Part shown: piece after piece, positions 2,174-62,833 of the stretch
Numbering within the stretch: the stretch's first letter is position 1
Layout: each line of letters begins with the position of its first letter
Source: Siphonodentalium dalli
Taxonomy: Eukaryota > Mollusca > Scaphopoda > Gadilida > Siphonodentaliidae
Length of the DNA: 64,000 nucleotides
Assembly (NCBI GenBank): GCA_032622095.1
Contig: CP136068.1
Location: 154,033,151 to 154,097,150, forward strand
Reading direction: 5' to 3'
Position numbers and translations under genes: made by a program
The notes under the pieces: model-generated
Databases searched by the model: none
The model's input: the letters and a program-made list of their open reading frames with translations, nothing else
What the model was told of the DNA's origin: nothing

Positions 2174-2662
2174 TTAACCCTTTCAGTGCCAAGTCCGATT
2201 TTTGTAGCAACCCTTATACCCTGTGGCAATGCATTCTCTTATATATGCGAGTCGACTATATGTCGCCTCGCATATATAAGAGAATGCATTGGCCTAACAA
2301 TTTTTCATCATTTGTTATTATTTTTTACAATTTTTACAATTTTAATAATTTTTTCTTATATTCTTTAACAGATTTATTTTGTAGGTTTAGTGCCAGGGAA
2401 TATTACGTTTTTCATGGGCATCAAAATTATTACTATGAATACTTGGTGATAGTTTTGAGTTATAATATGCCCCTAAGGTTTTATCCAGTTTGTTTTTAAA
2501 TTCGCTATAGCATGCTTAAGCATACCCAAAATAAATTCAACCCAAAAATAAAAAAAAAAAATCTAAAAAAAACAACATTTTATTTTTTATTTTTTTTAGG
2601 ACCGATTTTACAGACCGTAAATTAGGGCCGATGAGATCGGCCCCTGGCACTGAAAGGGTTAA
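2174..2662 (+). mobile_element. TTAA MITE, family F1 (piggyBac-like ends), copy 1
   Basis: TTAA at 2174-2177 and 2659-2662 flank inverted ends CCCTTTCAGTGCCA and TGGCACTGAAAGGG. TTAA targets and CCC-starting ends are typical of piggyBac-group elements. Inside is the hairpin cassette at about 2222-2300 (CCAATGCATTCTCTTATA-type arms), then AT-rich spacer and a GGCCGAT-gag-ATCGGCC stem near the right end. No transposase is present, so it is non-autonomous. Reading frames starting with ILLYMR or similar are the hairpin translated. Confidence 0.85.
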
Positions 2663-2822
2663 ATAACATGAAATGTTACGTTATGCTTTCAGGAATGGGA
2701 CTACTTCATCATGTTCTCAGCATAAGTGGAGCCAGCTCTCCTGACGTCAACCTCAAAGAAGCAAACTGCCTTGGATTTGTCGTAGTGTAATTATCAAACC
2801 ACTATCCCAATTGTCGAGTATT

Positions 2823-3060
2823 TTAACCCTTTGAGTGCCAGGTCCGATTTTTTTATCAACCAATATACCCTGTGCCAATGCATTCTCTTATATATGCGAG
2901 TCGACCATAGGTCGCCTCGCATATATAAGAGAATGCATTGGCCTAACATTTTTTTTTTACTATTTTTTACAATTTTAATAATTTATTCTTATATTCTTTA
3001 ACAGACTTATTTTGTAGGTTTAGGGCCGATGAGATCGGCCCCTGGCACTCAAAGGGTTAA
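2823..3060 (+). mobile_element. TTAA MITE, family F1, copy 2 (short)
   Basis: TTAA at 2823-2826 and 3057-3060 flank CCCTTTGAGTGCCAGG and its inverse. It keeps the hairpin cassette (about 2873-2945) and the right-end GGCCGAT stem but lacks about 250 bp of spacer found in copy 1. It lies only 160 bp from copy 1. Confidence 0.85.
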
Positions 3061-3074
3061 CTGTTACACTTATG

Positions 3075-3520
3075 CAAGCCTTGAAATAGTGGGTCTGTCA
3101 TTTGCAGAATGAGGTCCCCAGAGGGTGAATTTAGTGATGCTACCCCGCATAGCGGACTAGCATCACCAAATTCACCCTCTGGGGACCTCATTCTGCTTAC
3201 ACCTCAGCAGAATGAGGTTCCCAGAGGGTGAATTTGGTGATGCTACCCCACATAGCGGGCTAGCATCATCAAATTCACCCTCTAGGGACCTCATTCTGCT
3301 TACACCTCAGCAGAATGAGGTTCCCAGAGGGTGAATTTAGTGATGCTACTCCGCATAGCGGACTAGCATCACCAAATTCACCCTCTGGGGACCTCATTCT
3401 GCTTACACCTCAGCAGAATGAGGTTCCCAGAGGGTGAATTTGGTGATGCTACCCCACATAGCAGGCTAGCATCACCAAATTCACCCTCTAGGGACCTCAT
3501 TCTGCTTACACCTCATTTAA
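3075..3520 (+). mobile_element. Family C element: tandem array of four hairpins
   Basis: It starts with CAAGCCTTGAAATAGTG and CATTTGCAGAATGAGG, then carries four successive hairpins of roughly 100 bp. Each has arms GAATGAGGTYCCCAGAGGGT... and ...ACCCTCTGGGGACCTCATTC around a loop with CGCATAGCGG. The units are joined by CTTACACCTCAG. The right terminal repeat seen in copies at 22433-22872 and 57233-57486 is missing. No coding potential. Confidence 0.8.
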
Positions 3521-3917
3521 GATCATCAGGCGCTGCTAGCACTGGATGGTACCATTGTTAGTTCGACTGATAATAACTTAGGTGTATCTTCTGTAAAAAT
3601 TAAACCTCCCATACCGGTTACTGAACACAGTACATGTATGCAAAATCAAAAGTGTTTAAATTTAGACCCACTCCTTTAAAAGTGCTAAAATAGATTTCTT
3701 CCTTTAAAAAATGGGACGTATTATGTTATTGGACTGTCCATCCGTCCGTCCGTCTCGCCATCTAGGCGTCTGTTCACTTTTGTTTTTTCAGATGATAACT
3801 TTAAATAGTATCAACTGAATGGAATGAAATTTGGTATGCTGGTTTATTAAACACAAAATACAAGTTCAAATTCAGGTTCCGCCCATCAGTTTTCACCAGT
3901 TATGGCTCTGTTTATGC

Positions 3918-4848
3918 TAGTCCAAGTCTTCTCGTACTAAAACTAGCTAAGATTTTGGGATGGAGATGCTAGTGTTTAGTCCGAGTTCCAGGCCCATGCA
4001 TTTCTATGACACGAGTTACGCCCAGGATCTGTGGCGGGAATCTGTGGTGTATTTTACTCGATTTACCTAACAAAGCAATACATGATGCTATATACATCGG
4101 AAAGAGTGACATCTTATGGTCATAATGGTGTATAATAATCTAACTTTAATGTTAAATTACACATAGAATATTCCGGTTGATTGCCACAAACATCGTTGTT
4201 TTTTCTGTTTGTTTACTTAACTGAAAGCCGAACTCAGGTTCCGAAGAACTTCGGCATTGTCCGGTGTTTGTTTTGGCCGAGACGAATTTTGATACAAACA
4301 AAATGGCGGCCCCCATGATATTCTAATGGTCATTGTGTTTACACTGTTTTAAACTGTGAGATGGTTATAATTCCCGTAATTTATTTAATGTATTACATTT
4401 ATATCTTCAATATGTATTTAATCTATGTATTTATTTATTTATTGTCACGTATAATTACGATTACAATGGAGAATTCATCGTGCGTGGTTGATTGAAAATC
4501 TACGGAATATTTTCACCGGAAAATGCCGAACGTAGTTCGCAAGGTCAACTGAGTTCGCATACTTTAAAAAATATGTAAACACTGCGGCAAAAGTTTCTTT
4601 TCACATTAAATTACCGCTTTCAATTCACAACCGATGTGGGTTTCAGATCAAATAGCATGTCTTCTGCGGAAACTATCCGTTTATTGTAGCAATTGTGATA
4701 TTTTATTTCATATAATTGTGGTTTTATTTGAGCGGGTCACTAACGCTTAAGTCGTGTCATAGAAATGCATGGGCCTGGAACTCGGACTAAACACTAGCAT
4801 CTCCATCCCAAAATCTTAGCTAGTTTTAGTACGAGAAGACTTGGACTA
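3918..4848. mobile_element. Mutator-like non-autonomous element, recent insertion
   Basis: Terminal inverted repeats of 97 bp (3918-4014 and 4752-4848, ends TAGTCCAAGTCTTCTCG) match at every position by eye. The 9-bp sequence TGTTTATGC directly repeats at 3909-3917 and 4849-4857 as a target site duplication. Long TIRs with a 9-bp duplication are the hallmark of Mutator-like elements. The 737-bp interior has no long reading frame, so it must have been moved by a transposase made elsewhere. Identical arms and an intact duplication imply a young insertion. It landed in a dispersed repeat that continues on both sides. Confidence 0.88.
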
Positions 4849-4857
4849 TGTTTATGC

Positions 4858-5212
4858 ATGCAACTTGAATAATAGACCCACAATGTTGATACAGTACTCC
4901 CTGTGTATGTAACATGACTATTTTTCACTTCAGGACTGAGATGGCTATTGATCGCCACTGTTTCACTGTACTATCTCCGGCACCGAGACCTCTTCCACAA
5001 CATATTCTGTTGTTAATGGACATACAGTTCATGGATATACAGTGATAGGCAAGTGGATTTCCATACAACAAGCCAAGCTTATGAGGACTGGAATGGAATT
5101 CCATGAAAATAGGCCAATCTCGCTATGTTTCGCTGAATATTCAAATGGAGTTTCTAGAGAAACCAGGCCTAGATGAAGTCAGTGCTAGCCAAGAGGATGC
5201 AGTGCAGAGTGT
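4858..5212. other. Intergenic, right flank of the Mutator-like target repeat
   Basis: Continuation of the repeat into which the preceding element inserted, then unremarkable sequence. No gene is seen. Confidence 0.4.
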
Positions 5213-5697
5213 ATCACCTGGTCAAATGGTCCTGCGAATTTGCTATGATTTTGGTGGGTCCTGCTGAATTGTTATGATGCTGGTAGGCCATACTGATGCT
5301 GTTACCACTATTTTATATAAAGTCATATCCACTGTGTTTGGCTGATCTGAACAAATCGAGGAAAAACCACTATGTGTAGAAAACATTCAAAAACACTTAT
5401 GTTGTTAAATACAGTATTTTAATAAAGACTGTTGGTTGCAAACCGGCCATAATTAATACGGCTATTCATGTCGTGGTGCAAACACCAGCGCCACCATTAT
5501 TAACATATTTAAAAATATATATATAAATTCTTTAATGTTGCAAACACACACTTGCTTTTGTTCAAATCGCTCGGATCAGCCAAACACCGCAAAAATGACA
5601 AATTTAGTAAAAATTAGCAGTAATTCTTCTTAACAGCATTGCTTTGGCCTATCAGCATCATAGCAAATTAGCAGCACCACTTGACCAGGGGTGTGTA
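5213..5697. repeat. Imperfect long inverted repeat (about 480 bp)
   Basis: Arms of about 130 bp at 5213-5365 and 5560-5697 are imperfectly complementary: TGCTATGAT / ATCATAGCA, ATGATGCTGGTAGGCC / GGCCTATCAGCATCAT, and GTGTTTGGCTGATC / GATCAGCCAAACAC. The termini read CACCTGGTCAA and TTGACCAGGGGTG. It looks like an old foldback MITE without coding capacity. Confidence 0.65.
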
Positions 5698-5887
5698 TTT
5701 CAATTCACTGTTGTCAGGTCATGAACGATATTGATGGTCAACTCTAAATGGAAGTGTGACCACCCAACCCAGGGGTGTTGGGTCATCCTGATTTTCAGTG
5801 TCCAGTTGTCCAGGACTAGTCCCATTTTTAGCTCAACTTTACTTTGTAAAGTTTGAGCTATTGCCATGGCTTGGTATCCGTTGTGCG

Positions 5888-5907
5888 TGTGTGTGTGTGT
5901 GCGTGAT
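5888..5907 (+). repeat. (GT)n microsatellite
   Basis: A short GT run at the left edge of the following tandem array. Confidence 0.8.
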
Positions 5908-5919
5908 TCGTCAACAATT

Positions 5920-7560
5920 TCCTTTAGCACGGGCAACAGTTCGTACCTTTGGTCCGATTATTATGAAATTTGTCATGGATGTTGACATTGACATGTAGAT
6001 GGGAACGAGTCATTTTGGGGACATTCGGAAAAAAAAACATGGCCGTCAGCGGCCATCTTGGATTTCAAAATTCAATCCATTAGCACGGGCTTCAGGCCGT
6101 ACTGTTCGTCTTATTGTCATGAAATTTGTCATGGATGTTGAAATTGGAATGTAGATGGGAACGAGTAATTTTGGGATCATTCGGCCAAAAAACATGGCTG
6201 CCAGTGCTATCTTGGATTTTACTCTTTGTATGACTAAATTCTTTAGCACGGGCTACAGGTCGTACCTTTAGTCTGATCATCATAAAATTTGTCATGGATG
6301 TTAACAATGACATGTAGATGGGAACGAGTCATTTTGGGGTCATTCGGTCTAAAAACATGGCCGCCAGCAGCCATCTTGGATTTTACTCTTTGTATGACTA
6401 AATCCTTTAGCACGGGCTACAGGTCGTACCTTTAGTCTGATCATCATAAAATTTGTCATGAATGCTAATGATGACATGTAGATGGGAACGAGTCATTTTG
6501 GGGTCATTCGGCCAAAAAACATGGCCGCCAGCAGCCATCTTGGATTTTACTCTTTGTATGACTAAATCCTTTAGCACAGGCTACAGGTCGTACCTTTAGT
6601 CTGATCATCATAAAATTTGTCATGGCTGTTGAAATTGGAATATAGATGGGAACGAGTCATTTTGGGGTCATTCGGACAAAAAACATGGCCGCCAGCGGCC
6701 ATCTTGAATTTCAAAATTCAATCCATTAGCACGGGCTACAGGTCGTACTGTTCATCTGATCGTCATAAAATTTGTCATGGATGTTAATATTGACATGTAG
6801 ATGGGAACAAGTAATTTTGGGGTCATTCGGCCAAAAAACATGGCCGCCAGCAGCCATCTTGGATTTTACTCTTTGCATGACTAAATCCTTTGGCATGGGC
6901 TACAGGTCGTACCTTTGGTCAGATCATTATGAAATTTGTCTTGACTTTTGACATTGACATGTAGATGGGAACGAGTCATTTTGGGGTTATTCGGCATTAA
7001 AACATGGCTGCCAGCGGCCATTTTGGATTCTACTCTTTGCATGACTAAATCCTTTAGCACAGGCTACAGGTCGTACCTTTAGTCTGATCATCATAAAATT
7101 TGTCATGGCTGTTGAAATTGGAATATAGATGGGAACGAGTCATTTTGGGGTCATTCGGACAAAAAACATGGCCGCCAGCAGCCATCTTGAATTTCAAAAT
7201 TCAATCCATTAGCACGGGCTACAGGTCGTACTGTTCATCTGATCGTCATAAAATTTGTCATGGATGTTAATATTGACATGTAGATGGGAACAAGTAATTT
7301 TGGGGTCATTCGGCCAAAAAACATGGCCGCCAGCAGCCATCTTGGATTTTACTCTTTGCATGACTAAATCCTTTGGCATGGGCTACAGGTCGTACCTTTG
7401 GTCAGATCATTATGAAATTTGTCTTGACTTTTGACATTGACATGTAGATGGGAACGAGTCATTTTGGGGTTATTCGGCATTAAAACATGGCTGCCAGCGG
7501 CCATTTTGGATTCTACTCTTTGCATGACTAAAGCTATCAATTGTTTTTGAATTGTTGGAA
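5920..7560 (+). repeat. Tandem array, unit about 161 bp, with a 483-bp higher-order repeat
   Basis: About ten head-to-tail units carry the landmarks TTAGCACGGGCTACAGGTCG, AAATTTGTCATGGATGTT, ACATGTAGATGGGAACGAG and ACATGGCCGCCAG. A three-unit block starting at 6571 recurs almost unchanged from 7054, 483 bp later, so it duplicated recently as a block. Single or few-unit relatives lie at 29640-29740 (reverse) and 41440-42270. Minus-strand frames rich in MTNFMMIR are translations of the unit. Confidence 0.88.
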
Positions 7561-19626: not shown

Positions 19627-19821
19627 TTAACCCTTTCAGTGCCAAGGGCCGATCTCATCGGCCCTAATTTACGGTCTGTAAAATCGGCCCTAAAAACTTA
19701 AAAAAAAATTTGTTTTGTTTTTTGGGTTGAATTTTTTTTGGGTATGCTTAATATAAGAGAATGCATTGGCACAGGGTATATGTGTTGATTCAAAAATTGG
19801 ACCTGGCACTGAAAGGGTTAA
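19627..19821 (-). mobile_element. TTAA MITE, family F1, copy 3 (deleted, reverse)
   Basis: TTAA occurs at 19627-19630 and 19818-19821 with CCCTTTCAGTGCCA ends. The GGCCGAT stem is on the left and half of the hairpin cassette is kept near 19745-19775, so it is an internally deleted copy in reverse orientation. Confidence 0.8.
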
Positions 19822-19901: not shown

Positions 19902-20354
19902 TTAACCCTTTCAGTGCCAGGTCCGATTTTTGTATCAACCCATATACCCTGTGCAAATGCATTCTCTTATATATGCGAGTCGACCATAGGTCGCCTCGCA
20001 TATATAAGAGAATGCATTGGCCTAACAATTTTTCATCATTTGTTATTATTTTTTACAATTTTAATAATTTTTTCTTATATTCTTTAACAGACTTATTTTG
20101 TAGGTTTAGTGCCAGGGACTTTTACGTTTTTCATGGGCATCAAAATTATTACTATGAACACTTGGTGATAGTTTTGAGTTATAACATGACCCTAAGGTTT
20201 TAACCAGTTTGTTTTTAAATTCGCTATAGTTCGCTTAAGCATACCCGAAAAAATTCAACCCAAAAAAAAAAAAAAATTTAATTTTTTTTAAGGCCGATTT
20301 TATAGACCGTTAATTCGGGCCGATGAGATCGGCCCCTGGCACTGAAAGGGTTAA
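19902..20354 (+). mobile_element. TTAA MITE, family F1, copy 4
   Basis: TTAA occurs at 19902-19905 and 20351-20354 with CCCTTTCAGTGCCAGG ends. The hairpin cassette is at about 19952-20022. The spacer matches copy 1 (TTTGTAGGTTTAGTGCCAGG, TTTTTCATGGGCATC), and the right end carries GGCCGATGAGATCGGCC. Confidence 0.87.
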
Positions 20355-21124: not shown

Positions 21125-21540
21125 AGTGGTTTTTTTACCCTGTGCCAATGCATTCTCTTAATATGCGAGTCGACCATAGGTCGCCTCGCATATATAAGAG
21201 AATGCCTAACAATTTTTTTTCATTTTTTTTAAATAAATGTTTCTTACAATTTTTAGGACATAAAATAAAAAACATCCATTGCCCTGCAGGGAGCCCCACA
21301 CATATATAGAAGCATATAGAAGAGTGTCGTCTGCTCATGTTTGTCTGGGGCTCTGTATGGGTGAAATTATAAAATTGTTAAAGAATACAAAATATTTTTT
21401 TTTAAATTGCAAAAAATTGTTAGGCCAATGCATTCTCTTATATATGCGAGGCAACCTATGGTCGACTCGCATATATAAGAGAATGCATTGGCACAGGGTA
21501 AAAAAATCCCGACTTACGACTGGATTTGATATGGTGGGTC
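21125..21540 (+). mobile_element. Family F4 MITE, left end missing (copy 1)
   Basis: It starts inside the family at TTTTTACCCTGTGCC, has hairpin cassettes at about 21140-21206 and 21424-21499 in inverted orientation, and ends with ATCCCGACTTACGACTGGAT and ATATGGTGGGTCAC. The middle (TTTTTAGGACATAAAATAAA, GAAGAGTGTCGTCTGCTCAT) matches copies at 28325-29291 and 50722-51175. Confidence 0.8.
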
Positions 21541-22058
21541 ACAATTGGTTAACATGGATATGGTTAGTTGTTATCATTATATATACCATGTCCTCTGCCT
21601 CTATCGTCTTCATATTGCTTCTTGCCTATGCAATTGGGAATTTCTTCAGGTGAATGATATCAGTAGAGACATAAATTTATATAGATAATCAGTGGATCCA
21701 TTTGCCCAATACTCATTTGGGATAAGCTTTTCTCTGATGTCAGCTACCTTCGTACAAACTATTATAAAATGATATTTGTCTGCTATAAAGACCTTACAAA
21801 GGAGCATATAATCCTGGTTTTATTCCCTTTGTTTATTTCTCCATGTTCTTGGTGGTTATCTTTTAACAGACTTTTATATTTTTTCGGATGTTTACCCAAT
21901 GAGAGTACCATGTGTCCCGTTAAGAATATCTCTCTCTTCACTGTCAAATACTTTTGGGCTACCTCAAATCCTGAGTTTTCCAGAAAATTATTGTTTTTAG
22001 ATTTACTTTTATGTTTATAAATGGCTGAGCCGTGCACTGATTTTAGCATCTGTTCATA
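21541..22058. other. Unassigned intergenic sequence
   Basis: Overlapping frames of 83 and 111 codons on opposite strands at 21769-22118 have no recognisable domain. No splice or repeat context supports a gene. Confidence 0.3.
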
Positions 22059-22397: not shown

Positions 22398-22432
22398 ATT
22401 CATAGCACACACATTTCTTACCCTTATATATC

Positions 22433-22872
22433 CAAGCCTGCAAATAGTGTGTCTGCCATTTGCAGAGTGAGGTCTCCAGAGAGTGAGTTTAGTAATGCTA
22501 TCCCACGGAGCAGGCTAACATCACCAAATTCACCTTTGTGGACCACATTCTGCTTAGACCTCATCTTCTGGGAAGTATCTATAGTCTCAAGTTAACATTG
22601 TTTTTAGTTACTTTTTCCCTATTGGGAAGTTTCTATATCCTCTAATTTGCAGAAGATAAAATGCATTAAAGAGGTGACTAATGGATGAACATCACCAACT
22701 TCAACTGGGGAACTTCAATCTGATCATAGGTCCTCCATAGCAGTTGAGGCCTAAGCAGAATGAGGTTCACATAGGGTGAATTTGTTGATGCTAGCCCACT
22801 GCGATAGCATCACTAAATTCACTCTCTGGGGACCTCATTCTGCAAATGACAGACACACTATCTGCAGGCTTG
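22433..22872. mobile_element. Family C element, copy with both ends
   Basis: Inverted ends CAAGCCTGCAAATAGTGTGT and its near-exact inverse end at 22872, each followed by CATTTGCAGARTGAGGT. Inside are a diverged hairpin unit, sequence with TAATTTGCAGAAGATAAAAT, and a second unit. This copy defines the ends of family C. Confidence 0.75.
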
Positions 22873-22911
22873 TGTGTATCTCATTTAGGTTCAAGTCGAT
22901 CATCATTCATA

Positions 22912-23798: not shown

Positions 23799-24053
23799 TT
23801 AACCCTTTCATGACTGCAGCTTCCTGAAATTTAGCGAAAACCCTGTGCCAATGCATTCTCTTATATATGCGAGTCGCCTGTAGGGCACCTCACATATATA
23901 AGAGAATGAATGCATTGGCCTAACAATATTTACCTTGATCTAATAAGCCAGTGCTTCTCTTTTGTATGCAAGGCTCCCTATATATAGAAGAGAATGCACT
24001 GGCACAGGTTCTTTAATGCTGCACCAGCACAGCTCCTGTCATGATAGGGTTAA
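23799..24053 (+). mobile_element. TTAA MITE, family F3, copy 1
   Basis: TTAA occurs at 23799-23802 and 24050-24053 with ends CCCTTTCATGACTGCAGC and a related inverse (CTCCTGTCATGATAGGG). It contains the hairpin cassette at 23838-23915 and a decayed second one at about 23962-24008. Outside the first six bases the ends differ from those of families F1 and F2. Confidence 0.78.
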
Positions 24054-24221
24054 GGGCACTGCTCTTCAATGAGTATTTCGTATATAAAGGGTTAAGAAAT
24101 TAATGTAGTTTGAGGGTGTTTTATTGAAGGGTATAGCATTGTGGTTGTTGGTCACAATGTTTGCGGTTCACCCTACATGTGCTCCAACGGCCACTGCAAC
24201 ATACCCCTTAATAAAACTCAC

Positions 24222-24667
24222 TTAACCCTTTACCCAACAAAATGGCCAAATAAATCTTCAACAGCCTAAAATATCTTCGGTCTGTCACAATAACACCATA
24301 CAAATATCGATATCATTGGAACTGGTTCATTGGCCACATTGTGATGGTTACAGTTATGCCCTGTGCCAATGCATTCTCTTATATATGCGAGTCGACCATA
24401 GGTCGCCTCGCATATATAAGATAATGCATTGGCCTAAACAAATTCTTTTTTTAACACTTTTAACCATTTTTTCTTACATTCTTTAACAATTTTGTAATTT
24501 TTTCTTACATTTTTTCACAATTTTTATAATATTTTTCTACATTAATTTTATCATTTTTAATATGTTAAGCCAATGCATTCTCTTATATATGCGAGGCGAC
24601 CTATGGTCGACTCGCATATATAAGAGAATGCATTGGCACAGGGCCGTTCTGTTGGGTAAAGGGTTAA
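24222..24667 (+). mobile_element. TTAA MITE, family F2, copy 1 (complete)
   Basis: TTAA occurs at 24222-24225 and 24664-24667 with ends CCCTTTACCCAACA and TGTTGGGTAAAGGG. Two full hairpin cassettes, at 24360-24436 and 24573-24642, lie in inverted orientation around AT-rich spacer. It is the clearest example of the general plan: specific end, cassette, spacer, inverted cassette, specific end. Confidence 0.88.
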
Positions 24668-24769
24668 TAAAACATACTCAAACTACATTCACTTCTTATA
24701 ATTATATAGCTTTTCCTTATTAATTGCTATAAACTCAGTTGAATTTTGTTCCTGAAATATGTCAACAGT

Positions 24770-26944: not shown

Positions 26945-27745
26945 GGAGTTTGGTTATTGGATTTTGGTTATCTTATAGGATGTGAGCTACGAGTACTTTA
27001 TGCATATTTACTTCTGCAAAAATGTAAGTTTATGTAATCAGCCAACACATTGAATAGTCATTTCCATCTATAATTGGAGCAATATACAATTAGTGACGTG
27101 TGTTTCCAGTGATATATACACTGACTACATCGGTATGAGTGTTTGCACCAACACAATTACTTGCGGACACAACCGTAGAAAATGGAAGATGCCCAGTTAA
27201 TGTTTGATCTCGATGTCCAGCAATTTCCTAGCATATGTATATGACCCCCCCCCCCCCCCCTCCCGCTTTAACTTTTCGTATCTTAAAGATACGGGCGGCG
27301 TTGGCGATGGGCATGCTGTTAAAATATTCACCTCCGTCAAAAACGATTTCACGGAGTTTGGTTATCGGATTTTGGTTATCTTATAGGATGTGAGCTGCGA
27401 GTACTTTATGCATATTTACTTCTGCAAAAATGTAAGTTTATGTAATCAGCCAACACATTGAATAGTCATTTCCATCTATAATTGGAGCAATATACAATTA
27501 GTGACGTGTGTTTCCAGTGATATATGCACTGACTACATCGGTATGAGTGTTTGCACCAACACAATTACTTGCGGACACAACCGTAGAAAATGGAAGATGC
27601 CCAGTTAATGTTTGATCTCGATGTCCAGCAATTTCCTAGCATATGTATATGACCCCCCCCCCCCCCGCTTTAACTTTTCGTATCTTAAAGATACGGGCGG
27701 CGTTGGCGATGGGCATGCTGTTAAAATATTCACCTCCGTCAAAAA
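26945..27745 (+). repeat. 408-bp tandem duplication with poly-C tracts
   Basis: The unit starting GGAGTTTGGTTATYGG at 26945 repeats at 27353. The copies are nearly identical; the main difference is the length of a poly-C run (27245-27260 and 27653-27666). The second copy runs into the TTAA element at 27685-28213, and the first holds the first bases of that element, so the duplication includes an element fragment. Confidence 0.85.
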
Positions 27746-28213
27746 CCACCATAAGCAGAAATAATAGTAAAATATAGACAGACTTTGTTCTCATACCAAT
27801 CAGAAATATGGCATGAACAGTATGTTATTGTCAAATGTTTTTCCTTTGTTATGTAAACAAAAGCAAAAAACGTTACAGAACCTGGCTTTTGTTTAGATCC
27901 GGATATGGTAAACATAAAGAGCGTTATTTGTTACTGTTTTCCTGATATGGAAATAATAAAGCGCGTTTATATCATTTGTGTGTGATTAACAAATAGAATT
28001 GCGCAGTGGTGTGTAATCAGAAGCAAAACTTCTGTAACACGAGCAGGCTCTTGCTTACGAACACCATCGTACGTCTTGACGACAATATACTATTTACGCT
28101 CGGATTATTGTTTGGCATATGAACAAAACTATATATATTTTAATATTCCTTCTGTTGATGGCGATTTGAACAAATATGAATATTTCTGCAACGAACACCG
28201 CCCGTACCTTTAA
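27685..28213 (+). mobile_element. TTAA MITE, family L (Kolobok-like), copy 1
   Basis: TTAA occurs at 27685-27688 and 28210-28213 with ends AGATACGGGCGGCG and CGCCCGTACCT. The interior of about 520 bp is AT-rich and non-coding. The A/G-starting ends with a TTAA target fit Kolobok better than piggyBac. Other copies are at 28475-28977, 36695-37216 and 53307-53781. Confidence 0.82.
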
Positions 28214-28324
28214 AGTCATAATGACTAAGTGCTACATGGAGAAGAACACAATGCACATATTCATCGGACCAAGAACCCGCGTCACCAAAAATCTCTAACC
28301 CAAAGCGGTTTTTAGTTAAACATA

Positions 28325-29291
28325 TGTGACCCGCCATAGTATATCCAGTCGGAAGTCGGGATTTTTGTTACCCTGTGCCAATGCATTCTCTTACATGTAT
28401 ATATGCGAGTCGACCATAGGTCACCTCGCATATATAAGAGAATGCATTAGCCTAACAATTTTTTATCATGTTTTTTAAAGGCACGTGAGGCCTTAGTTGT
28501 CGAAAATATTCATATTTGTTCCAATCACCGTAAACAGAAAAACATTAAAACGCATACAGTTTCGTTCATATATACCATGACCATCGCGTAAACAGCATGT
28601 TATCATAAAAGATTTACTATATTTTACATAAGCAAGAGCCTGATTGTGTTACAGAAGACAGCACAATGCTGCTGGCTAATCACACATAAATGGCATAAAC
28701 GCTCTTTATTCGTTCCATATCAGGAATTCACCAACAAAGAACGCTCTTTATGTTTACCATCATAATATAAACAAACACCAGAAAAGTAACTTGTTATGCT
28801 TTTGTTTACATAACAATGGTCAAAGATATGACAATAACATACTGTTTATGCGATATTTCTTATTTGTATACGGACAAAGTCTGTCTACATTTTGTTGTTC
28901 TTTCTGTTTGTGGCGGTTTTTGACGGGTGGACATATTTTCACAGGATACCCACCGCCAAGGCCAACCGTACCTTTAAATAAATGTTTCTTACAATTTTTA
29001 GGACATAAAATAAAAACAACATCCATTACCCTGCATGGAGCCCCACACATATATAGAAGCACATAGAAGAGTGTCGTCTGCTCATGTTTGTCTGGGGCTC
29101 TGTATGGGTGAAATTATAAAATTGTTAAAGAATACAAGAACAAATTATTAAAACTGTAAAACAAATTTAGGCCAATGCATTCTCTTATATATGCGAGGCG
29201 ACCTATGGTCGACTCGCATATATAAGAGAATGCATTGGCACAGGGTAAAAAAAATCCCGAATTCCGACTGGATTTGATATGGCGGGTCACA
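28325..29291 (+). mobile_element. Family F4 MITE, copy 2, interrupted by a family L element
   Basis: Ends are TGTGACCCGCCATAGTATAT and ATATGGCGGGTCACA, with hairpin cassettes at about 28375-28450 and 29173-29243. Removing 28475-28977 restores the spacer seen in the copy at 50722-51175. Frames over the right part are repeat translations. Confidence 0.83.
28475..28977 (-). mobile_element. TTAA MITE, family L, copy 2, nested in family F4
   Basis: TTAA occurs at 28475-28478 and 28974-28977 with ends AGGCACG and CCGTACCT. The target is the TTTAAA spacer of the host MITE, which is intact at about 50858-50864 in another copy. This dates family L activity after this family F4 insertion. Confidence 0.82.
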
Positions 29292-36338: not shown

Positions 36339-36694
36339 ATTAGTTGTAAGACACCATACTACTAATGCAGTGCTATTTCAATACATATAATTATGCTATT
36401 TCAATAAAAAAATCTGCACACATGAGCACAAAATTGATCATATATGTATATACTCACATCTGAACCCTGTATATCAACATGCTGATGAGCTAAATAAATT
36501 GAATTGAATTGTTCAGAAAGGTTGGTTATCGAAGTGATCGATTTCTTGCGGAGACTCTTCAATAAAAGAATACTGTATATACATGTATAGTCCGTACATT
36601 TACAATACATTTCACTTATTTATTTTTTAATCGATCAATTAATCAGTTTATTTCTCATAACCTATACATAACACAGATATGGAGATAATAATAA

Positions 36695-37216
36695 TTAAAG
36701 ATACGGGCGGCGTTGTCGGTGGGTATGCTGTTAAAAAAATATTCAACTCCGCCATAAACAGAAATAATAGTAAAATATAGACAGACCTTGTTCTTATGCC
36801 AATCATAAATATGGCATAAACAGTATGTTGTTGTCAAACGTTTTCCTTTGTTATGTAAACAAAAGCAAAAAACGTTACGGAACATGGTTTTTGTTTAGAT
36901 CCGGATATCGTAAACATAAATAGCGTTATTTGTTATTGTTTTACTGATATGGAAATAATAAAGAGCGTTTATATCATTTGTTTGTGATTAGCCAATAGAA
37001 TTGCGCTGTGTTATGTAAACCGAAGCAAAACGTCTGTAACACGAACATGCTCTTGTTTACGTACACCATCGCGCACGTCTTGACGATAATATACTATTTA
37101 CGCGCTGATTATGTTTGGCATATGAGCAAAACTATATATATTTTAATATTCCTTCTGTTGATGGCGATTTGAACAATTATGAATATTTCTGCAACGAACA
37201 CCGCCCGTGCCTTTAA
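36695..37216 (+). mobile_element. TTAA MITE, family L, copy 3, just upstream of the gene
   Basis: TTAA occurs at 36695-36698 and 37213-37216 with ends AGATACGGGCGGCG and CGCCCGTGCCT. It is colinear with 27685-28213. It ends 97 bp before the start codon of the phospholipase gene, so it may hold promoter or 5' UTR sequence. Confidence 0.85.
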
Positions 37217-37312
37217 ATATATACATATACACATTATACACAGAGGTTATGTGCAATTTCTTTGACAATGAACCCTTTCAGCCCGTCTCTTCACTGATTG
37301 CAATCATCAAAC
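37217..37312 (+). promoter_or_regulatory. Gene-proximal upstream region / probable 5' UTR
   Basis: The 96 bp between the family L element and the start codon have a TA-rich left part and CTTTCAGCCCGTCTCTTCAC nearer the ATG. I see no definite TATA box or initiator. The transcription start could lie here, inside the MITE, or in an upstream non-coding exon. Confidence 0.3.
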
Positions 37313-37666
37313 ATGGGAAATCAAATACAAGTTGGCGCTAGTTACCTTCAATCGACGCCTGACCCGCTGGATGTATTGAATCGCAAACGATTCTTAGCCG
37401 TTGATTTAAAGTTAGAATCCGGCGACGTCGCCGATGGAGGTGAATTGATACATTTAGATGCACTTGTGGATGTCATGGTTGTTGGGAAGGTCTCGGCTGA
37501 CTCCGATGGACCCCGCGAACCAGATCATACCCCGGACAGTGCCAGATTTAGCTTCTCGAAAGAAAAATTACTGACCATTCGTCCAGAAGAGTTCCGGTTC
37601 CCTTACGAAAATCTTGTGTTCGAAGGAGGTGGAAATAAAGGATTAGCGTATATTGGCGCACTTAAG
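37313..37666 (+). CDS. Patatin-like phospholipase, exon 1
   Basis: First coding exon of a PNPLA-family lipid acyl hydrolase, which would cleave acyl chains from phospholipids or related lipids. It gives residues 1-118. The ATG at 37313 is chosen because it is the first ATG in the open frame; the five codons before it lead only to a TTG. Residues 1-95 are a family-specific, probably flexible leader. The patatin fold begins at about residue 97 with YENLVFEGGGNKGLAYIGAL, where GGGNKG (105-110) is the oxyanion-hole loop. The exon ends after a complete codon with donor GTAAAT. The full set of eight exons keeps one frame and both catalytic residues, so the gene looks intact. It runs out of the window to the right. 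Substrate and cell location cannot be read from the sequence. Confidence 0.9.
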
Positions 37667-37879
37667 GTAAATATAATTAAACAATTTGCGTGTGTTAGCA
37701 TTTCAGTTTCAGAATACATGACGCCGTTGGTTTTAATTTGGTTATATATAGGCTGACTAAACATATTGGATTTATTACCTTATTTGAATGAAATTTCATG
37801 TAGATGTAAATTAAAATTTTATATTTCGACCCGAAAAAAAAACAACAAAAAGAACTAACACGAACACGGAATTTCACAG

Positions 37880-38136: not shown

Positions 38137-38227
38137 GGTAAATATTGTTAGGTGAATGCATATAAGACAATGCATTGACACATGGTTTTCGCAAAATTTT
38201 AGGAAGCTCCAGTCATTGCGAGTTAAT
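38137..38227. mobile_element. Fragment of a family F3 MITE
   Basis: GTTAGGTGAATGCATATAAG, ATGCATTGACAC and AGGAAGCTCCAGTCATT match the end part of the element at 46684-46902. Only the right third remains. It lies in intron 2. Confidence 0.55.
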
Positions 38228-41439: not shown

Positions 41440-42270
41440 GACCGTACCGATGCACTGATCATCATGAACTTTTTGATGGATGATGACATTGGCGTCTAGA
41501 TGGGAACGAATCATTTTGGGCTCATTTGCATAAAAACATGGCCACTGGCAGCCATCTTGGATTTCAAAATTGCATCATTTAGCATGGGCTAGAAGAAGCA
41601 GTGTTTATCTGATCATCATTAAATTTGTCATGGAGGTTTACATTGATTGACATGTAGATGGGAACGAGTCATTTTGGTGTGAATCCCCCAAGAAACATGG
41701 CCGCCATCGGCCATCTTCGATTTCAGTGATAATACTAGATAAATCTGAATCAATGACACAGCCTAGAGCCTGTGTCGATTAACCTATCACGAAATTTTTC
41801 ATCGATCATGACATTGATATATAGACGACACCGAGTCATTTTGGGCTTATTTGCATGAAAAACATGGCCGCCAACAGCCATCTTGGATTTCAAAATTGCA
41901 TCATTTAGCACTACACGGGCAAGAGGTCGCAGTGTTGGTCCGATCATAATAAAATTTGTCACGGAGGTTGACATTGACATGTAGATGGGAACGAGTCATT
42001 TTGGTGTGAATTCTCAAAGAAACATGGCCGCCGTCGGATTTCAGCGACAACTCTGCATATATAATTAAATCAATAACACTGCCTAGAGCCTAGGCCTATG
42101 TCGATGCACCGATCATCGTGAAGTTGTTCATGGGTCATGACATTGGTATCAAAATGAGAACGAATCATTGCTAGAGACTGTAACATTGGTGCGATCGTCG
42201 TGAAATTAGTCATAGAAACATGGCCGCCGTCGGATTTCAGCCACTCGTTTCATCGACCATGAAAGTTACG
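41440..42270 (+). repeat. 161-bp family units, diverged, in intron 2
   Basis: About five units carry GATGGGAACGARTCATTTTG, ACATGGCCGCC and AAATTTGTCA, more diverged than in the array at 5920-7560. Confidence 0.75.
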
Positions 42271-46683: not shown

Positions 46684-46902
46684 TTAACCATTTCATGGCG
46701 GGAGCTGCGCTGGTGCAGCATTAAATATCATGTGCCAGTGCATTCTCTTATATATAAGAGAATGCACTGGCTAACAAGATAAAGGTGAATATTGTTAGGC
46801 CAATACATTCTCTTATATGTGCGTGGCTCCCTATGCATGGGAGACTCGCATATGTTAAGAGAATGCATTGGTACAAACAATCCAGGAAGCTCCAGTCATT
46901 AA
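46684..46902 (-). mobile_element. TTAA MITE, family F3, copy 2 (reverse, compact)
   Basis: TTAA occurs at 46684-46687 and 46899-46902. Ends resemble those at 23799-24053 reversed (GGTGCAGCATTAA, AGGAAGCTCCAGTCAT). Hairpin cassettes are at 46735-46770, reduced to CATTCTCTTATATATAAGAG, and at 46797-46872. Confidence 0.7.
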
Positions 46903-50721: not shown

Positions 50722-51175
50722 TGTGACCCGCCATATCAAATCCAGTCGTAAGTCTGGATTTTTTTTACCCTGTGCCAATGCATTCTCTTATATATGCGAG
50801 TCGACCATAGGTCGCCTCGCATATATAAGAGAATGCATTGGCCTAACAATTTTTTATCATTTAAAAAATTATAATTGTTTCTTACAATTTTTAGGACATA
50901 AAACACCCATTACCCTGCAGGGAGCCTCACACATATATAGAAGCATATAGAAGAGTGTCGTATGCTCATGTTTGTCTGGGGCTCTGTATGGGTGAAATTA
51001 TAAAATTATTAAATAATACAAGAAAAATTTATTAAAATTGTAAAAAAATTGTTAGGCCAATGCATTGTCTTATATATGCGAGGCGACCTATGGTCGACTC
51101 GCATATATAAGAGAATGCATTGGCACAGGGTAAAAAAATCCCGACTTACGACTGGATTTGATATGGCGGGTCACA
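50722..51175 (+). mobile_element. Family F4 MITE, copy 3 (complete)
   Basis: Ends TGTGACCCGCCATATCAAAT and ATTTGATATGGCGGGTCACA enclose two inverted hairpin cassettes (50772-50845, 51055-51127) and the GAAGAGTGTCGTATGCTCAT middle block. TATG on both sides (50718-50721 and 51176-51179) may be a 4-bp target duplication. This is the reference copy for family F4. Confidence 0.83.
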
Positions 51176-52493: not shown

Positions 52494-52960
52494 GGCTAAC
52501 GCCCGTATAGATCATATTCCACCAGTACAAAACCTGGGAAGTTTTTGAAGTTTTTACAGGGAACCTTATAAAATTAAAATTAAATAACACAGGGAATATA
52601 CTTCTTTGTAATTATCTGTTTCTTAATATGTACTTCACTGTATGTGAAGGTCTCAACTCGAAATTTCACGATTTAAGTGACTTTGTGAGCGATTTTGCTT
52701 TGCGATTCTTACAATTATGGAATATTTCCTGGGTAATTAATTGAATGTTTATTGCGATATCGGCTCTCAAAAGTCACAGAAAAGCATGCATTTTCGGGTT
52801 GGGACCATCGCATATAGTGAAGTACACTATTAAGGAACAGATAGTCATTCAGATATATATTCCCCGTGTTATTTTTTCGACTTTATATGGTTCCCTGTCA
52901 AAACTTCAAAAAATTCCCAGGTTTTGTACTTGTGGAATATGATCTCTATGGGCGTTAGCC
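52494..52960. mobile_element. 467-bp MITE, 50 bp before exon 4
   Basis: Terminal repeats of about 75 bp (GGCTAACGCCCGTATAGATC, CAAAACCTGGGAAGTTTTTG and their inverses) are nearly complementary. Non-coding. It ends 49 bp before the exon 4 acceptor, so the branch point of intron 3 may lie in it or in the short remaining gap. Confidence 0.8.
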
Positions 52961-53145: not shown

Positions 53146-53306
53146 GTGAGTACATAAGTAGAGACACACAAGGCATTCAAATGCAATCATGCATAATTAT
53201 GTTCATGCAAAATTATATATTTATTTACTTATACAAGTTTGTAAAACGAACTATCATTCGAAAATTAGATGCATGTTACAGATCGATTTCCTTCTTATTT
53301 TCAATA

Positions 53307-53781
53307 TTAAAGGCACGGCCGGCGTTCGTTGTAGAAATATTCATATTTGTTCAAATCGCCATCTACAGAAGGAATATTAAAAAATATCTAGTTTTGTTCA
53401 TATGATAAGCATAAGCAGCGCGTAAATAGTATATTGTCGTCAAGACGTACGACGGTGTACGTAAATTCTATTGGTTAATCACAAACAAATGATATTAACG
53501 CTCTTTATTATTTCCATATCAGGAAAACAGTAACAAATAACGCTCTTTATGTTTACAATATCCGGATCTAAACAAAAGCCAGGTTTTGTAACGTTTTTTG
53601 CCTTTGTTTATACATAACAAAGGAAAAACATTTGACAATAACATACTGTTTATGCCATATTTCTGATTGGTATAAGAACAAAGTCTGTCTATATTTTACT
53701 ATTCTGTCTGTTTATGGCGGTTTTTGACGGAGGTGAATATTTTAACAACATACCCACCGCCAACGTCGCCCGTATCTTTAA
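53307..53781 (-). mobile_element. TTAA MITE, family L, copy 4
   Basis: TTAA occurs at 53307-53310 and 53778-53781 with ends AGGCACGGCCGGCG and CGCCCGTATCT, in reverse orientation relative to 27685-28213. In intron 4. Confidence 0.82.
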
Positions 53782-57232: not shown

Positions 57233-57486
57233 CAAGCCTTGAAATAGTGTGTCTATCATTTGCAGAATGAGGTCCCCAGAGGGTGAATTTAGTGATGCTA
57301 CCCCGCATAGCGGGCTAGCATCACCAAATTCACCCTCTGGGGACTTCATTCTGATTACACCTCAGCAGAATGAGGTTCCCAGAGGGTGAATTTGGTGATG
57401 CTAGCCCGCTATGTGGGGTAGCATCACTAAATTCACCCTCTGGGAACCTCATTCTGCAAATGACAGGAAAACTATTTCAAAGCTTG
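57233..57486. mobile_element. Family C element, two hairpins
   Basis: Ends CAAGCCTTGAAATAGTGTGT and ACTATTTCAAAGCTTG enclose two hairpin units of the AGAGGGTGAATTTRGTGATG type. It interrupts the dispersed repeat seen at 23620-23775 (AATAAGTTCAACAAACGAC before, GTACATTGGAATATTCTATA after). Confidence 0.78.
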
Positions 57487-58700: not shown

Positions 58701-59108
58701 AATAAAAGTTAATAATTTGATATAAATTTAATTTATGGCTCCATGCAGCCATAAATCAAATTACGAATTTAATTTCAGAAATATAATGAACACAAAAAAA
58801 CAATATATGCTTCTATAAGCTATGCGAAGTCATCAAAAATCTTCGAAATTATTTTTGAAACACCGTTGACCCTATCAACCCCACCATCCAATTCACACAT
58901 GCATTATGTGCGTAAAGAATACATTGTCATGCGACCCTTTTTTGTTGTTGTCGACTTCGATCATTAAACCAATGACATATCATATACTGTATATTATAAA
59001 TATGTCTCGTGTGTCACATACTGTGATTTGAGTGAATAAAACATTGAACTTGATCGCTATCTAATCGTGAACCAAAATATATGTGTGGTAGCTATTCATA
59101 CTCTCCAG
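58701..59108. other. End of intron 5 with a small hairpin
   Basis: AATTTGAT...TTTATGGCT pairs with AGCCATAAA...CAAATT near 58712-58765, with GCTTCTATAAGCTATGCGAA after it, recalling the family H flank. Otherwise nothing. Confidence 0.4.
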
Positions 59109-59239
59109 GTTGGTGGCTATCGATGGATCAAGATGATAATTTTGTTACACGATTGCAACCGTTGGATGAGATACCCCGCCTCATGGCCAAACAAGAACGA
59201 TTCGGATCGTATAATGAAAAGACATTGGGCTTCATGCTG
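59109..59239 (+). CDS. Patatin-like phospholipase, exon 6
   Basis: Completes a split Gly codon and reads WWLSMDQDDNFVTRLQPLDE, IPRLMAKQERFGSYNEKTLG, FML. It lies just after the catalytic aspartate segment (NYPIHAFDGWWLSM), so the fold continues without a gap. Acceptor CTCTCCAG, donor GTAAGC. Confidence 0.9.
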
Positions 59240-59631
59240 GTAAGCAATCGCATTACGATTCAAGGATACATAACTCAGTGACAAATTTTTGCGAATAAGC
59301 TAAAGTACAGACATATGATTACATCTACAATTTTTGTCGAAATTAAAACAACCTTGATGGGACCTATGCCTAAAATAATGGCTCAGCATATATGGCTCAG
59401 CAACCCCTCCCACGTTGGCCAAAATTGCTGGAAATCGTGTATTGCTACCTAAAATAGGGATGTATTGATTCTGTGACCTTTTCTAGAAACTAAACTATAT
59501 ATAGTCAGAGCAGTCTCACGGATGTGACCGATCATCATATTTTTATATGTACAACATCAAACCTTTCAAACTGGACGGCACTGCTTCAACTTCGTTATGG
59601 AGTATACTGGAATCAGCTTGTTCATCTGTAT

Positions 59632-60424
59632 ACTCTGTGGATCTGCGATTATGAAGTCCGTCCAGACTCTGTGCACCTGCGATTATGAATTCCGTCCAGA
59701 CTCTGTGCATCTGCGATTATGAAGTCCGTCCAGACTCTGTGCACCTGCGATTATGAATTCCGTCCAGACTCTGTGCATCTGCGATTATGAATTCCGTCCA
59801 GACTCTGTGCATCTGCGATTATGAAGTCCGTCCAGACTCTGTGCACCTGCGATTATGAATTCCGTCCAGACTCTGTGCACCTGCGATTATGAAGTCCGTC
59901 CAGACTCTGCATGTGCACCTGCGATTATAAAGTCCGTCCAGACTCTGTGCACCTGCGATTATGAAGTCCGTCCAGACTCTGTGCACCTGCGATTATGAAG
60001 TCCGTCCAGACTCTGTGCACCTGCGATTATGAAGTCCGTCCAGACTCTGTGCACCTGCGATTATGAAGTCCGTCCAGACTCTGTGCACCTGCGATTATGA
60101 AGTCCGCCCAGACTCTGTGCACCTGCGATTATGAAGTCCGTCCAGACTCTGCATGTGCACCTGCGATTATAAAGTCCGCCCAGACTCTGTGCACCTGCGA
60201 TTATGAAGTCCGTCCAGACTCTGTGCACCTGCGATTATGAAGTCCGTCCAGACTCTGTGCACCTGCGATTATGAAGTCCGTCCAGACTCTGTGCACCTGC
60301 GATTATGAAGTCCGTCCAGACTCTGTGCACCTGCGATTATGAAGTCCGCCCAGACTCTGTGCACCTGCGATTATGAAGTCCGTCCAGACTCTGTGCACCT
60401 GCGATTATGAAGTCCGTCCAGACT
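59632..60424 (+). repeat. 34-bp minisatellite, about 23 copies, in intron 6
   Basis: The unit is CTCTGTGCACCTGCGATTAT followed by GAAGTCCGTCCAGA. Variants are GAATTC instead of GAAGTC, CATCTG instead of CACCTG, and a longer CTCTGCATGTGCACC form at about 59909 and 60151, the latter showing that several units duplicated together. The seed sequence (GCGCACCTGTGATTATGAGG) is still present once at 60567-60590. Confidence 0.95.
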
Positions 60425-60690
60425 TTTTTGGGGGAGTTATCCTCCTTTGTTTTACTTAGAAATTGCTCGCAACATGCATAATTTTGTCCGAGCTTTTATT
60501 CCTATATTTTCCAGACAATGTTTTTAGAACTTGGCACATATGTTTAATACCCGCTTGGGAACCTGCGCACCTGTGATTATGAGGTCCATCCGTTTTCTAG
60601 TTGAGTTACCCCACTATTTCGACTTAGAAATTTTTCGCAACATGCATAATTTTGTCCGAGATTGTATTCCTTGCGATGTATCTTTGGTCC
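60425..60690 (+). repeat. Longer parent repeat next to the minisatellite
   Basis: GCAACATGCATAATTTTGTC, with preceding TTTACTTAGAAATTGCTC or TTCGACTTAGAAATTTTTC, occurs twice about 180 bp apart. The 34-bp unit is an amplified part of this parent repeat. Confidence 0.75.
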
Positions 60691-61025
60691 CAATGTGACA
60701 GTCTCTCTAGTTGTATATGTTTCGAATATTATGAATAAATAATCAGCCATTGTCATATTGAGTCAGGCTTCCGCCTGTATCAGTATTTATTAAGAAGATT
60801 ATAGAAATATTTAGGTCCGCCTGAGGCTTATTACCACCCCGCCTGGCGAACTGAAACAACCGAATACCGAACAACCTTTCCATCTGCTGTTATTATGCCG
60901 TATGTAATACACACATGCATACCTGTACTGAAATATATTGTATATTATCTCCATATATCTCTGTAATGTCTCAACTTGACGATCAGAATAAACGAATTGA
61001 ATTGAATTGTTATATTATTTTTCAG
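60691..61025. other. End of intron 6
   Basis: Holds GTCAGGCTTCCGCCTGTATC and GTCCGCCTGAGGC words and a polypyrimidine-like TTATTATTTTTCAG acceptor. No other element is seen. Confidence 0.4.
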
Positions 61026-61117
61026 TACGCACAATGCGAGCGATCAGTTATGATGCACACGCTGGAAAGTCGAGTGGGACTTCGCAGACCTGAAATCCCA
61101 GACACTGAGCTGGGACG
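61026..61117 (+). CDS. Patatin-like phospholipase, exon 7
   Basis: Encodes YAQCERSVMMHTLESRVGLR, RPEIPDTELG and two bases of an Arg codon. A helical, charged C-terminal region after the patatin core. Acceptor TTTTTCAG, donor GTAAGA. The last eleven bases and the donor are tandemly duplicated just downstream. Confidence 0.87.
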
Positions 61118-61188
61118 GTAAGACATCTTGTTTGGTTTAACATATACACCGAGCTGGGACGATAAGACATCTTGTTTGGTTTAACATA
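61107..61188 (+). repeat. 44-bp tandem duplication of the exon 7 donor
   Basis: GAGCTGGGACGGTAAGACAT... at 61107 repeats at 61151 as GAGCTGGGACGATAAGACAT. The second copy has GATAAG where the first has the donor GGTAAG, so only the first can be spliced normally. Confidence 0.92.
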
Positions 61189-61924
61189 TTGACCAGATTC
61201 GTCATCTCCGGTTTAAACCTCCTAGTTTTAAAACCTACATTGATGGTCCAGCCAAACCGGGTCTATGTGGGCATCCGTGGTCAATCGGTGGTTGTCTGAT
61301 TCAGTTAGATGAGCATGCAATCAAACTGCACAGTTACCAGGGGACCAGAAGCAGACCGGTATAATTAGTATTGGCCCGCCCGCAAATAACACGAACAAGA
61401 ACACGCTTACAAGAATCCTCGTGTCATAATGAATCAATTGTTAAATAATAATAATAACAAGCCATGTTTTGGAATTGGAAATTATGAAACTGATATTTCC
61501 AATAAATATGAGAGTTACGGGGCCGTCATGTGGCGTTATTGGTTTGGGTGGGTCAGCAAACAATTCCGCTTCAAATGAAGTATACTATATATATGTTACT
61601 TACATTTGAGGGTATCTTTGAGGCGCGAGTCTGAAAAACTGAGTCCTTGACCGAGGCTGAGCGGATGTCATGTCGAACGACTAAAAAAAACAGCCAGTCG
61701 GCGCCATGCAGTCCTGTGCTCATAACCAGAGTTCCTTTGAACCAAGTTTTACACGGGATACATCCAATTGAGGCGTATATAATAAAATAACTTTCTATAC
61801 CTATATATGAGGCGTTTCTGAAACAAATATTATTTTAGTGTATCTTGAACAAGTTTGTGGATTTTTTTTTTATTAAAAAAGCTTTGTTTTAATTTTTTTA
61901 AAGTCGCATACCTTTATATAGGAA
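61189..61924. other. Intron 7, unassigned
   Basis: GGCCCGCCCGCAAATAACA near 61375 echoes 49085-49100. Otherwise no element is recognised. Confidence 0.4.
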
Positions 61925-62385
61925 GTACTGAGTTTAGTGTACCTGTTACTTGCCGAATGAGGTACCCAGAGGGTGAATGTAGTGACGCTAACCCGCATGG
62001 CGGGCTAGCATCACTAAATTCACCCTCTGGGGACCTCATTCTGCTCAGGACTAATCTTCTCTGGAAAGTCTTTATTACCAAATTTCTGTAGAAACTTCTT
62101 CACAGATTCTATTTCTTTTTTAGTTTAGTTTCTCTATATCCCCAAATTGGCAGACGACACATTGCATAATCGAGGTTCCCAATGGGTGTACGTCACAATA
62201 TTCACCATTTGTGAACTTCAATCTGAATCTATGTCTCCCATAGCAGATGAGGCCATGCAGAATAAGGTTCCCAGAGGATGAATTTAGTGATGCTAGCCCG
62301 CTATGCGGGATAGCGTCAATAAATTCACCCTCTGGGGACCTCATTTTGCAAATGACAGGCGCACTACATCTGTTCGCAAACCTGC
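61925..62385. mobile_element. Family C element, diverged copy
   Basis: Two hairpin units (61960-62045 and 62260-62350) are separated by sequence like the middle of 22433-22872 (CAAATTGGCAGACGACACAT). The right end TGCAAATGACAGGCGCACTA matches and the left end has decayed. Confidence 0.68.
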
Positions 62386-62514
62386 CTAATATATATAGAT
62401 CTTACAAGTGTTATATTACAAGTTTTTCTTTGCTTTATATTTTCAATGTATGTATAGCGATAGGACTTTAATTAATATGACTATGCCTGTGAAATGAGCG
62501 CACACTATATGTCT

Positions 62515-62833
62515 TTAACCCTTTACCCAACAAACCGCCCAAAACAGCCTAAAATATCTTCGGTCTGTCTCAATAGAACCATACAAATATGGATATCATT
62601 GGAACCGGCCCATTGACCACATTGTGATGGTTACAGTTATGCCCTGTGCCAATGCATTCTCTTATATATGCGAGTCGACCATAGGTCGCCTCGCATATAT
62701 AAGAGAATGCATTGGCCTAAAAAAAATCTTTTTTTAACACTTTTTACCATTTTTTCTTACATTCTTTAACAATTTTATAATTTTTAATGTGTTAAGCCAA
62801 TGCATTCTCTTATATATGTCTATATGTCTTTAA
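62515..62833 (+). mobile_element. TTAA MITE, family F2, copy 2, right end lost, at the exon 8 acceptor
   Basis: TTAA at 62515-62518 precedes CCCTTTACCCAACA, and the first half matches 24222-24667, with one hairpin cassette at 62643-62716. The second cassette stops after CATTCTCTTATATATG at 62818 and the right terminal repeat is gone. CTATATGTCTTTAA occurs before the element (62505-62518) and again after it (62820-62833), and the second copy runs into the exon 8 acceptor. Confidence 0.85.

Follow-up and report, generated by a model that had tools for sequence, protein, structure and literature searches.

A 69-nt hairpin cassette common to four families of small transposable elements with differing ends in a 64-kb window of Siphonodentalium dalli

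Families of miniature inverted-repeat transposable elements (MITEs) are mainly classified by their ends. The coral (Acropora) CMITEs, as described in the parts of Wang et al. (2010, PMC2872659) drawn on here, form six TTAA families, mostly with CCCTTT-type ends, and possess a 75-base internal region that is better conserved from family to family than the terminal inverted repeats (TIRs); the authors suggest that this region matters for transposition and leave the reason open. The same parts of that paper give the hallmark of piggyBac/TTAA elements as a TTAA site together with a CC[C/T]T terminal motif, and describe both CMITE-IN, a mobile TTAA composite derived from a nested MITE, and Microuli (MSITE), with subterminal inverted repeats and TTAA. 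According to sections of PMC7351741 and PMC11707139, piggyBac contains a 19-bp palindromic internal repeat, which lies inside both ends, is asymmetrically placed and is bound by a dimer of the C-terminal domain; for piggyBat, subterminal sequences are described, in the excerpted text, as inhibiting activity. Here we describe a stretch of 64,000 nucleotides from the scaphopod mollusc Siphonodentalium dalli (contig CP136068.1 of assembly GCA_032622095.1, positions 154,033,151 to 154,097,150), referred to below as the window, in which the ends of small elements vary and an internal hairpin module, the cassette, stays constant. The cassette is common to four families, F1 to F4, whose ends differ beyond the opening TTAACCCTTT and between which similarity starts within a few letters of CCCTGTG. 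Most likely, F1, F2 and F3 are non-autonomous piggyBac-type (TTAA) elements which have kept a common hairpin module and replaced their ends; F4 carries the same module, and is not placed in the piggyBac type.

The cassette is a unit of 81 bp, consisting of an outer border (CCCTGTG), a hairpin and an inner border (CCTAACA). The hairpin measures 69 nt: its stem has 32 pairs, its loop is 3 nt long, and close to the tip there is a single T·C mismatch, which is kept in all 14 copies where both letters are present. Sixteen cassettes were aligned; a 17th (38146-38185, minus strand) is strongly shortened, to 40 nt, with both borders kept, and there are two broken fragments. All of these fall in 12 elements or remnants (four of F1, two of F2, three of F3 and three of F4). 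The 15 cassettes and the four end types reported in the initial annotation are all present, the cassettes starting within 10 bp of where they had been placed, and absent from that list were a degenerate cassette in F3a (23941-24009, minus strand), the strongly shortened one at 38146-38185 and the fragments in F1d (19751-19778) and F2b (62790-62818). Since exact scans of viral contigs (26-mer and 20-mer) and of genome contigs (26-mer) gave no match, everything reported here rests on this one 64-kb window and its 12 elements or remnants, which are as follows.

2174-2662, plus strand: F1a, with TTAA-CCCTTT ends and one cassette at 2219-2299.
2823-3060, plus strand: F1b, internally deleted, with a cassette at 2868-2948 and CCCTTTGAGTGCC at both ends.
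19627-19821, minus strand: F1d, internally deleted, its cassette reduced to the outer part at 19751-19778.
19902-20354, plus strand: F1c, with a cassette at 19947-20027 and the end motif AGTGCCAGG repeated internally at 20108.
21130-21543, plus strand: F4c, left end lost, with cassettes at 21138-21211 (plus) and 21418-21498 (minus).
23799-24053, plus strand: F3a, with cassettes at 23841-23925 (plus) and 23941-24009 (minus).
24222-24667, plus strand: F2a, with cassettes at 24359-24439 (plus) and 24563-24643 (minus).
28325-29291, plus strand: F4b, with cassettes at 28371-28457 (plus) and 29165-29245 (minus); nested within it, at about 28463-28974, is an unrelated repeat some 510 bp long.
38146-38226, minus strand: F3c, a remnant with one end and the strongly shortened cassette at 38146-38185 with both borders.
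46684-46902, minus strand: F3b, with a cassette at 46793-46878 (minus) and a shortened one at 46728-46777 (plus).
50722-51175, plus strand: F4a, with cassettes at 50768-50848 (plus) and 51050-51130 (minus).
62515-62818, plus strand: F2b, cut short within its right cassette so that the right end is lost, with a cassette at 62642-62722 (plus) and a fragment at 62790-62818.

Where both ends are kept, elements measure 195-489 bp, leaving out F4b with its nested repeat. That repeat, which adjoins the left cassette of F4b on its inner side, has dispersed copies at 27685-28234, 36692-37217 and 53292-53781 (about 72-74% alike), and F2a seems by eye to be inserted in a different repeat, between its inverted arms (AATGTAGTTTGAG...CTCAAACTACATT) at 24105-24222 and 24668-24700.

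When seven of the 16 cassettes were folded as DNA, z-scores ranged from -4.1 to -12.6 and none of 200 shuffles folded as well in any case. The 69-nt hairpin is letter-identical in five copies (F1b, the left cassettes of F2b and F4a, the right cassettes of F2a and F4b), and the cassettes of F1b and of the left side of F4a are identical across all 81 bp. The result against shuffles and the identity of the hairpin among F1, F2 and F4 copies exclude chance as its origin. Both borders recur across F1, F2, F3 and F4, with some letters worn, and the cassette was therefore not inserted separately into each family. Selection of the hairpin as a structured RNA, an insulator or a promoter, the first two of which had been proposed at the outset, could account for so strong a fold, and in F3 the hairpin is kept with three stem pairs changed on both sides, a number reached in 7 of 500 shuffles. 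However, no Rfam match was obtained at the gathering score, and a palindromic DNA-binding site would give equal covariation; such selection is, in our judgement, very improbable.

A covariance model of the cassette recovers its 16 training copies by construction. Other palindromes that it found, at 1082, 3110-3499, 57268, 61958, 62270, 40268 and 19183, looked unrelated in sequence to the eye in the seven inspected, and seem to score by pairing alone. The window also holds a second family of palindromic repeats, with units of about 103 bp (TGAGGTCCCCAGAGGGTGAATTTAGTGATGCTA...), at 3104-3515, 57262-57456 and 61935-62366, in tandem in two of these places; the inverted repeats at 22426-22879 and 52494-52960 may belong to it.

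The families differ in how the cassette is arranged. F1 has a single one, found near one end only in the complete copies (2174-2662 and 19902-20354), and its cassette-free end has a short palindrome of its own, GGGCCGATGAGATCGGCCC; in F2, F3 and F4 an inverted pair of cassettes bounds a core. The earlier description of complete copies with one cassette near each end is therefore correct for F2a, F3a, F3b, F4a, F4b and F4c and does not extend to complete copies of F1. In the same way, the cassette is almost constant in F1, F2 and F4, but clearly diverged in F3, where one copy is shortened to 48 nt.

The main rival explanation takes the core for an older MITE, with CCCTGTG...CACAGGG as its own ends, which became nested in several unrelated MITEs, the composites being amplified by their outer ends and the hairpin now having no function. 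It would explain why the families border at CCCTGTG, whose CCCT agrees with the piggyBac end motif CC[C/T]T, and CMITE-IN provides, in the parts of PMC2872659 concerned, a composite of nested MITEs able to move; moreover, the F4 core is centred in a near-perfect inverted repeat with TTTA/TAAA flanks. Nevertheless, the core lacks a target duplication, by eye, in F2a (TATG/CCGT) and in F3a (AAAA/TTCT), and every cassette found in the window belongs to an F1-F4 element or remnant. Conversely, the only TTAACCCTTT end in the window that belongs to nothing with a cassette is a lone AAAGGGTTAA end at 24086-24095, 42 bp beyond the right end of F3a. We regard this nesting as possible, though somewhat doubtful.

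The outer ends place F1, F2 and F3 with TTAA elements. Of the 13 ends of F1, F2 and F3a, 12 start with TTAACCCTTT and one (the right end of F3a) with TTAACCCTAT, and the CC[C/T]T motif is present at every one of them; it is missing from the three remaining F3 ends, those of F3b and F3c, which are worn (one TTAACCATTT, one with no TTAA and one TTAACTCG). TTAA stands at both ends of F1a-d, F2a and F3a, at one end only of F3b and at the sole remaining end of F3c, and F2b has one end left. F4 ends start with TGTGACCC, and TTAA lies exactly 5 nt outside three of the five (28325, 29277 and 21529), for which the chance is about 7e-5, given a TTAA frequency of 0.007 in the window and 20 allowed offsets. 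In F4a, TATG on both sides of TGTGACCC is equally possible as a target duplication, in conflict with the TTAA reading of F4b and F4c. F4 is not classed as piggyBac-type because CC[C/T]T is missing under every reading of its ends.

Once TTAACCCTTT is removed, 45 of the 51 pairings of ends from different families show no more likeness than shuffles do, at a threshold of p 0.06. The six pairs below it comprise five of the ten F1-F4 pairs (lowest p 0.006) and one of the six F3-F4 pairs; there are none among the 31 pairs of F1-F2, F1-F3 and F2-F3, nor among the four of F2-F4. The likeness of F1 and F4 ends rests on a common stretch like CAGT...GATTTTT, and is read as a weak trace only, because the F1 copies are not mutually independent. 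Calling the ends unrelated, as had been done initially, was too strong, since F1, F2 and F3 have TTAA-CCCTTT, the piggyBac/TTAA hallmark, in common, F4 may use TTAA, and F1 and F4 are weakly alike. Within families, both ends of a copy change in concert: in F1b each end reads CCCTTTGAGTGCC, and F4b has CGG at its two ends against CGT in the F4a ends and the right end of F4c. This indicates that ends evolve stepwise, so that a small part of a gradual series of intermediates, which would have pointed to ordinary family divergence, is seen within families, but the families are not bridged.

TTAA is also the usual target site of Kolobok elements. With this context, and with F1a, F1c, F2a and F4a measuring 446-489 bp, near the approximately 450-bp terminal repeats (LTDRs) with short TIRs described in parts of PMC9587614, the elements might be considered solo terminal repeats of KolobokP transposons. 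This identity was rejected on the termini, as Kolobok termini (5'-RR...YY-3' in the same parts of PMC9587614) differ from the CCC with which F1, F2 and F3 begin; nor are hairpins mentioned in the text of that paper, and a KolobokP origin is thus extremely improbable.

As the initial annotation maintained, the families resemble one another far more in the cassette than in their ends, which is seen in the between-family comparisons as well as in the identical hairpins. Pairwise divergence within F1, F2 and F4 taken together amounts to 20/866 for the cassette, 66/829 for outer ends and 105/1200 for inner parts, with tiny p-values; for F3 the corresponding figures are 18/122, 16/72 and 5/20. Because such pairs are not independent, we prefer the p-values based on departures of each copy from its family consensus, in a comparison that omits F3, the half cassette of F1d and also F2, whose two copies yield no consensus. 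For F1 and F4 together, the cassette shows 11/722 such departures, the outer ends 20/520 and the inner parts 36/1129 (Fisher p 0.015 against outer ends and 0.033 against inner parts). Similarity continues inward past the cassette in some arms, which are AT-rich and belong to F1, F2 (left) and F4 (right). In these arm comparisons, which covered F1, F2 and F4, five of the six pairs between F1 and the F2 left arm were equalled by no more than 2 of 200 shuffles and the sixth by 16; between the F2 left and F4 right arms, five of six pairs were matched by none of 200 shuffles and the sixth by nine. For F1 and F4 arms, 0 to 72 of 200 shuffles were as good, and the F2 right arm resembles no other arm (61 to 189 of 200).

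Substitutions in the cassettes bear on how this likeness is maintained. The 12 cassettes of F1, F2 and F4 contain 16, of which 10 lie in the stem and nine of those ten break a pair; none is common to both cassettes of one element in the four elements compared, among which F4a has a change in one cassette only. Being unshared and mostly pair-breaking, they suggest that the likeness comes from source elements and not from copy-by-copy repair; copies seem to decay freely once inserted, and the constancy seems to reside in the source elements. These private, mostly unpaired changes also speak against homogenisation of the cassette by ectopic gene conversion, or a recombination hot spot that exchanges ends between families, and so do the family borders, which lie at CCCTGTG and hence outside the stem. 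Breakpoints or indels in the stem of F1d, F2b, F3b, F3c, F4b, F4c and F3a would nevertheless suit such events. Likewise, F2b breaks off midway through the stem of the cassette on its right, next to CTATATGTCTTTAA, by eye a second copy of the flank on its left (62790-62833); interrupted gap repair with microhomology would be expected to leave such a junction. We consider conversion or a hot spot unlikely.

The explanation we favour, that of a shared hairpin module which has acquired new ends and has been retained for transposition, is, taken as a whole, about evenly balanced between acceptance and doubt. New families would arise when new ends come to enclose the module, through template switching in repair or through insertion, and the composite of module and new ends would then be amplified; the internal copy of the end motif in F1c (AGTGCCAGG at element positions 12 and 207) and the mid-stem break of F2b fit such an origin. 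With less certainty, and by analogy, the long palindrome may be retained as a putative internal site of transposase binding or synapsis, the outermost TTAA-CCCTTT supplying the cleavage site, and a single machinery could then serve elements whose subterminal ends differ. The second recognition site put forward in the initial annotation is accordingly a fair reading of the cassette as a candidate, given that the palindromic internal repeats of piggyBac are bound by transposase in the sections of PMC7351741 and PMC11707139 cited above. As piggyBat subterminal sequences inhibit activity in the excerpted text, a regulatory role would be as possible as an activating one. A bolder and quite tentative proposal is that the hairpin is a portable recognition module, in which a TTAA-type transposase mainly reads the palindrome and cuts at any ends bounded by TTAA that flank it; the module would in this way repeatedly recruit ends and found families, including F4 with its ends outside the usual motif. 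If the palindrome matters, families could arise by replacement of ends, and a classification based on ends would split relatives.

Several observations weigh against a module retained through changes of ends. The excess conservation of the cassette within families is modest, and the right end of F1, which is free of a cassette, is equally conserved (2/128 departures). Covariation amounts to few events in one family, F3, where further pair types are not unusually many (48 of 500 shuffles reach their number). Two cassettes are not needed, because F1 has one, and the distance from tip to cassette varies, with both extremes in F2a: 20 bp on the right and 133 bp on the left. In F4, the 50722 copy (F4a) has TTAA at neither end, and where TTAA is present it is followed by ACATA, ACAAA or CCAAT, the ends otherwise reading TGTGACCC, with CC[C/T]T missing either way; the ends of F1 and F4 may, judging from their letters, be distant relatives instead of replacements. 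The hairpin, at 69 nt, is much longer than the 19-bp repeat given for piggyBac in the excerpted sections. Finally, no transposase was found among the 10 frames scanned against Pfam, out of 51 open reading frames of at least 90 aa in the window.

The window is without any open frame of 200 aa, and the frame at 37298-37756 gave a weak match to a patatin-like phospholipase at 17.7 bits, under the Pfam cut-off of 27.7. Long tandem arrays occur at 5920-7532 and 41461-42169, with units of about 164 bp and 327 bp, and a further array at 59632-60424 comprises about 23 copies of a 34-bp unit with 95% matches.

In searches of the open-licence literature, no report of the cassette stood among the papers listed; letter searches for the ends and the cassette gave only papers on other subjects (titles and abstracts), and the name of the amphioxus LanceleTn MITEs was not found among the papers listed for it. 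The pattern has a close precedent in the coral CMITEs, from which the cassette itself differs. Both comprise several non-autonomous TTAA families whose internal region is better conserved than the TIRs, and in the window, too, the internal region is more alike between families than the ends; the left end of CMITE family VI, CCCTTTCACTGCCA, matches F1, CCCTTTCAGTGCCA, at 13 of 14 positions. However, CMITEs are about 100 bp long with a 75-base internal region, against the 195-489 bp given above, nothing in the window significantly matches the published 60-bp consensus of the CMITE internal region (best E 0.29), and the words "hairpin" and "palindrome" occur nowhere in the CMITE text (PMC2872659). 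The long inverted pair of hairpins and a fourth family with ends of other sequence set the present case apart. CMITE-IN and Microuli likewise have TTAA, with a nested composite in the one and subterminal inverted repeats in the other, whereas here one cassette occurs in four families, and around the core of F2a or F3a no target duplication is seen. With piggyBac of Trichoplusia ni, as described in the sections cited, the elements have in common an identical palindromic repeat inside both ends, unequal distances to the tips and TTAA sites; transposase binding is demonstrated for the piggyBac repeat, while the role of the cassette is a candidate one by analogy. The 69-nt palindrome thus offers a concrete object for the question that the authors of the CMITE study left open.

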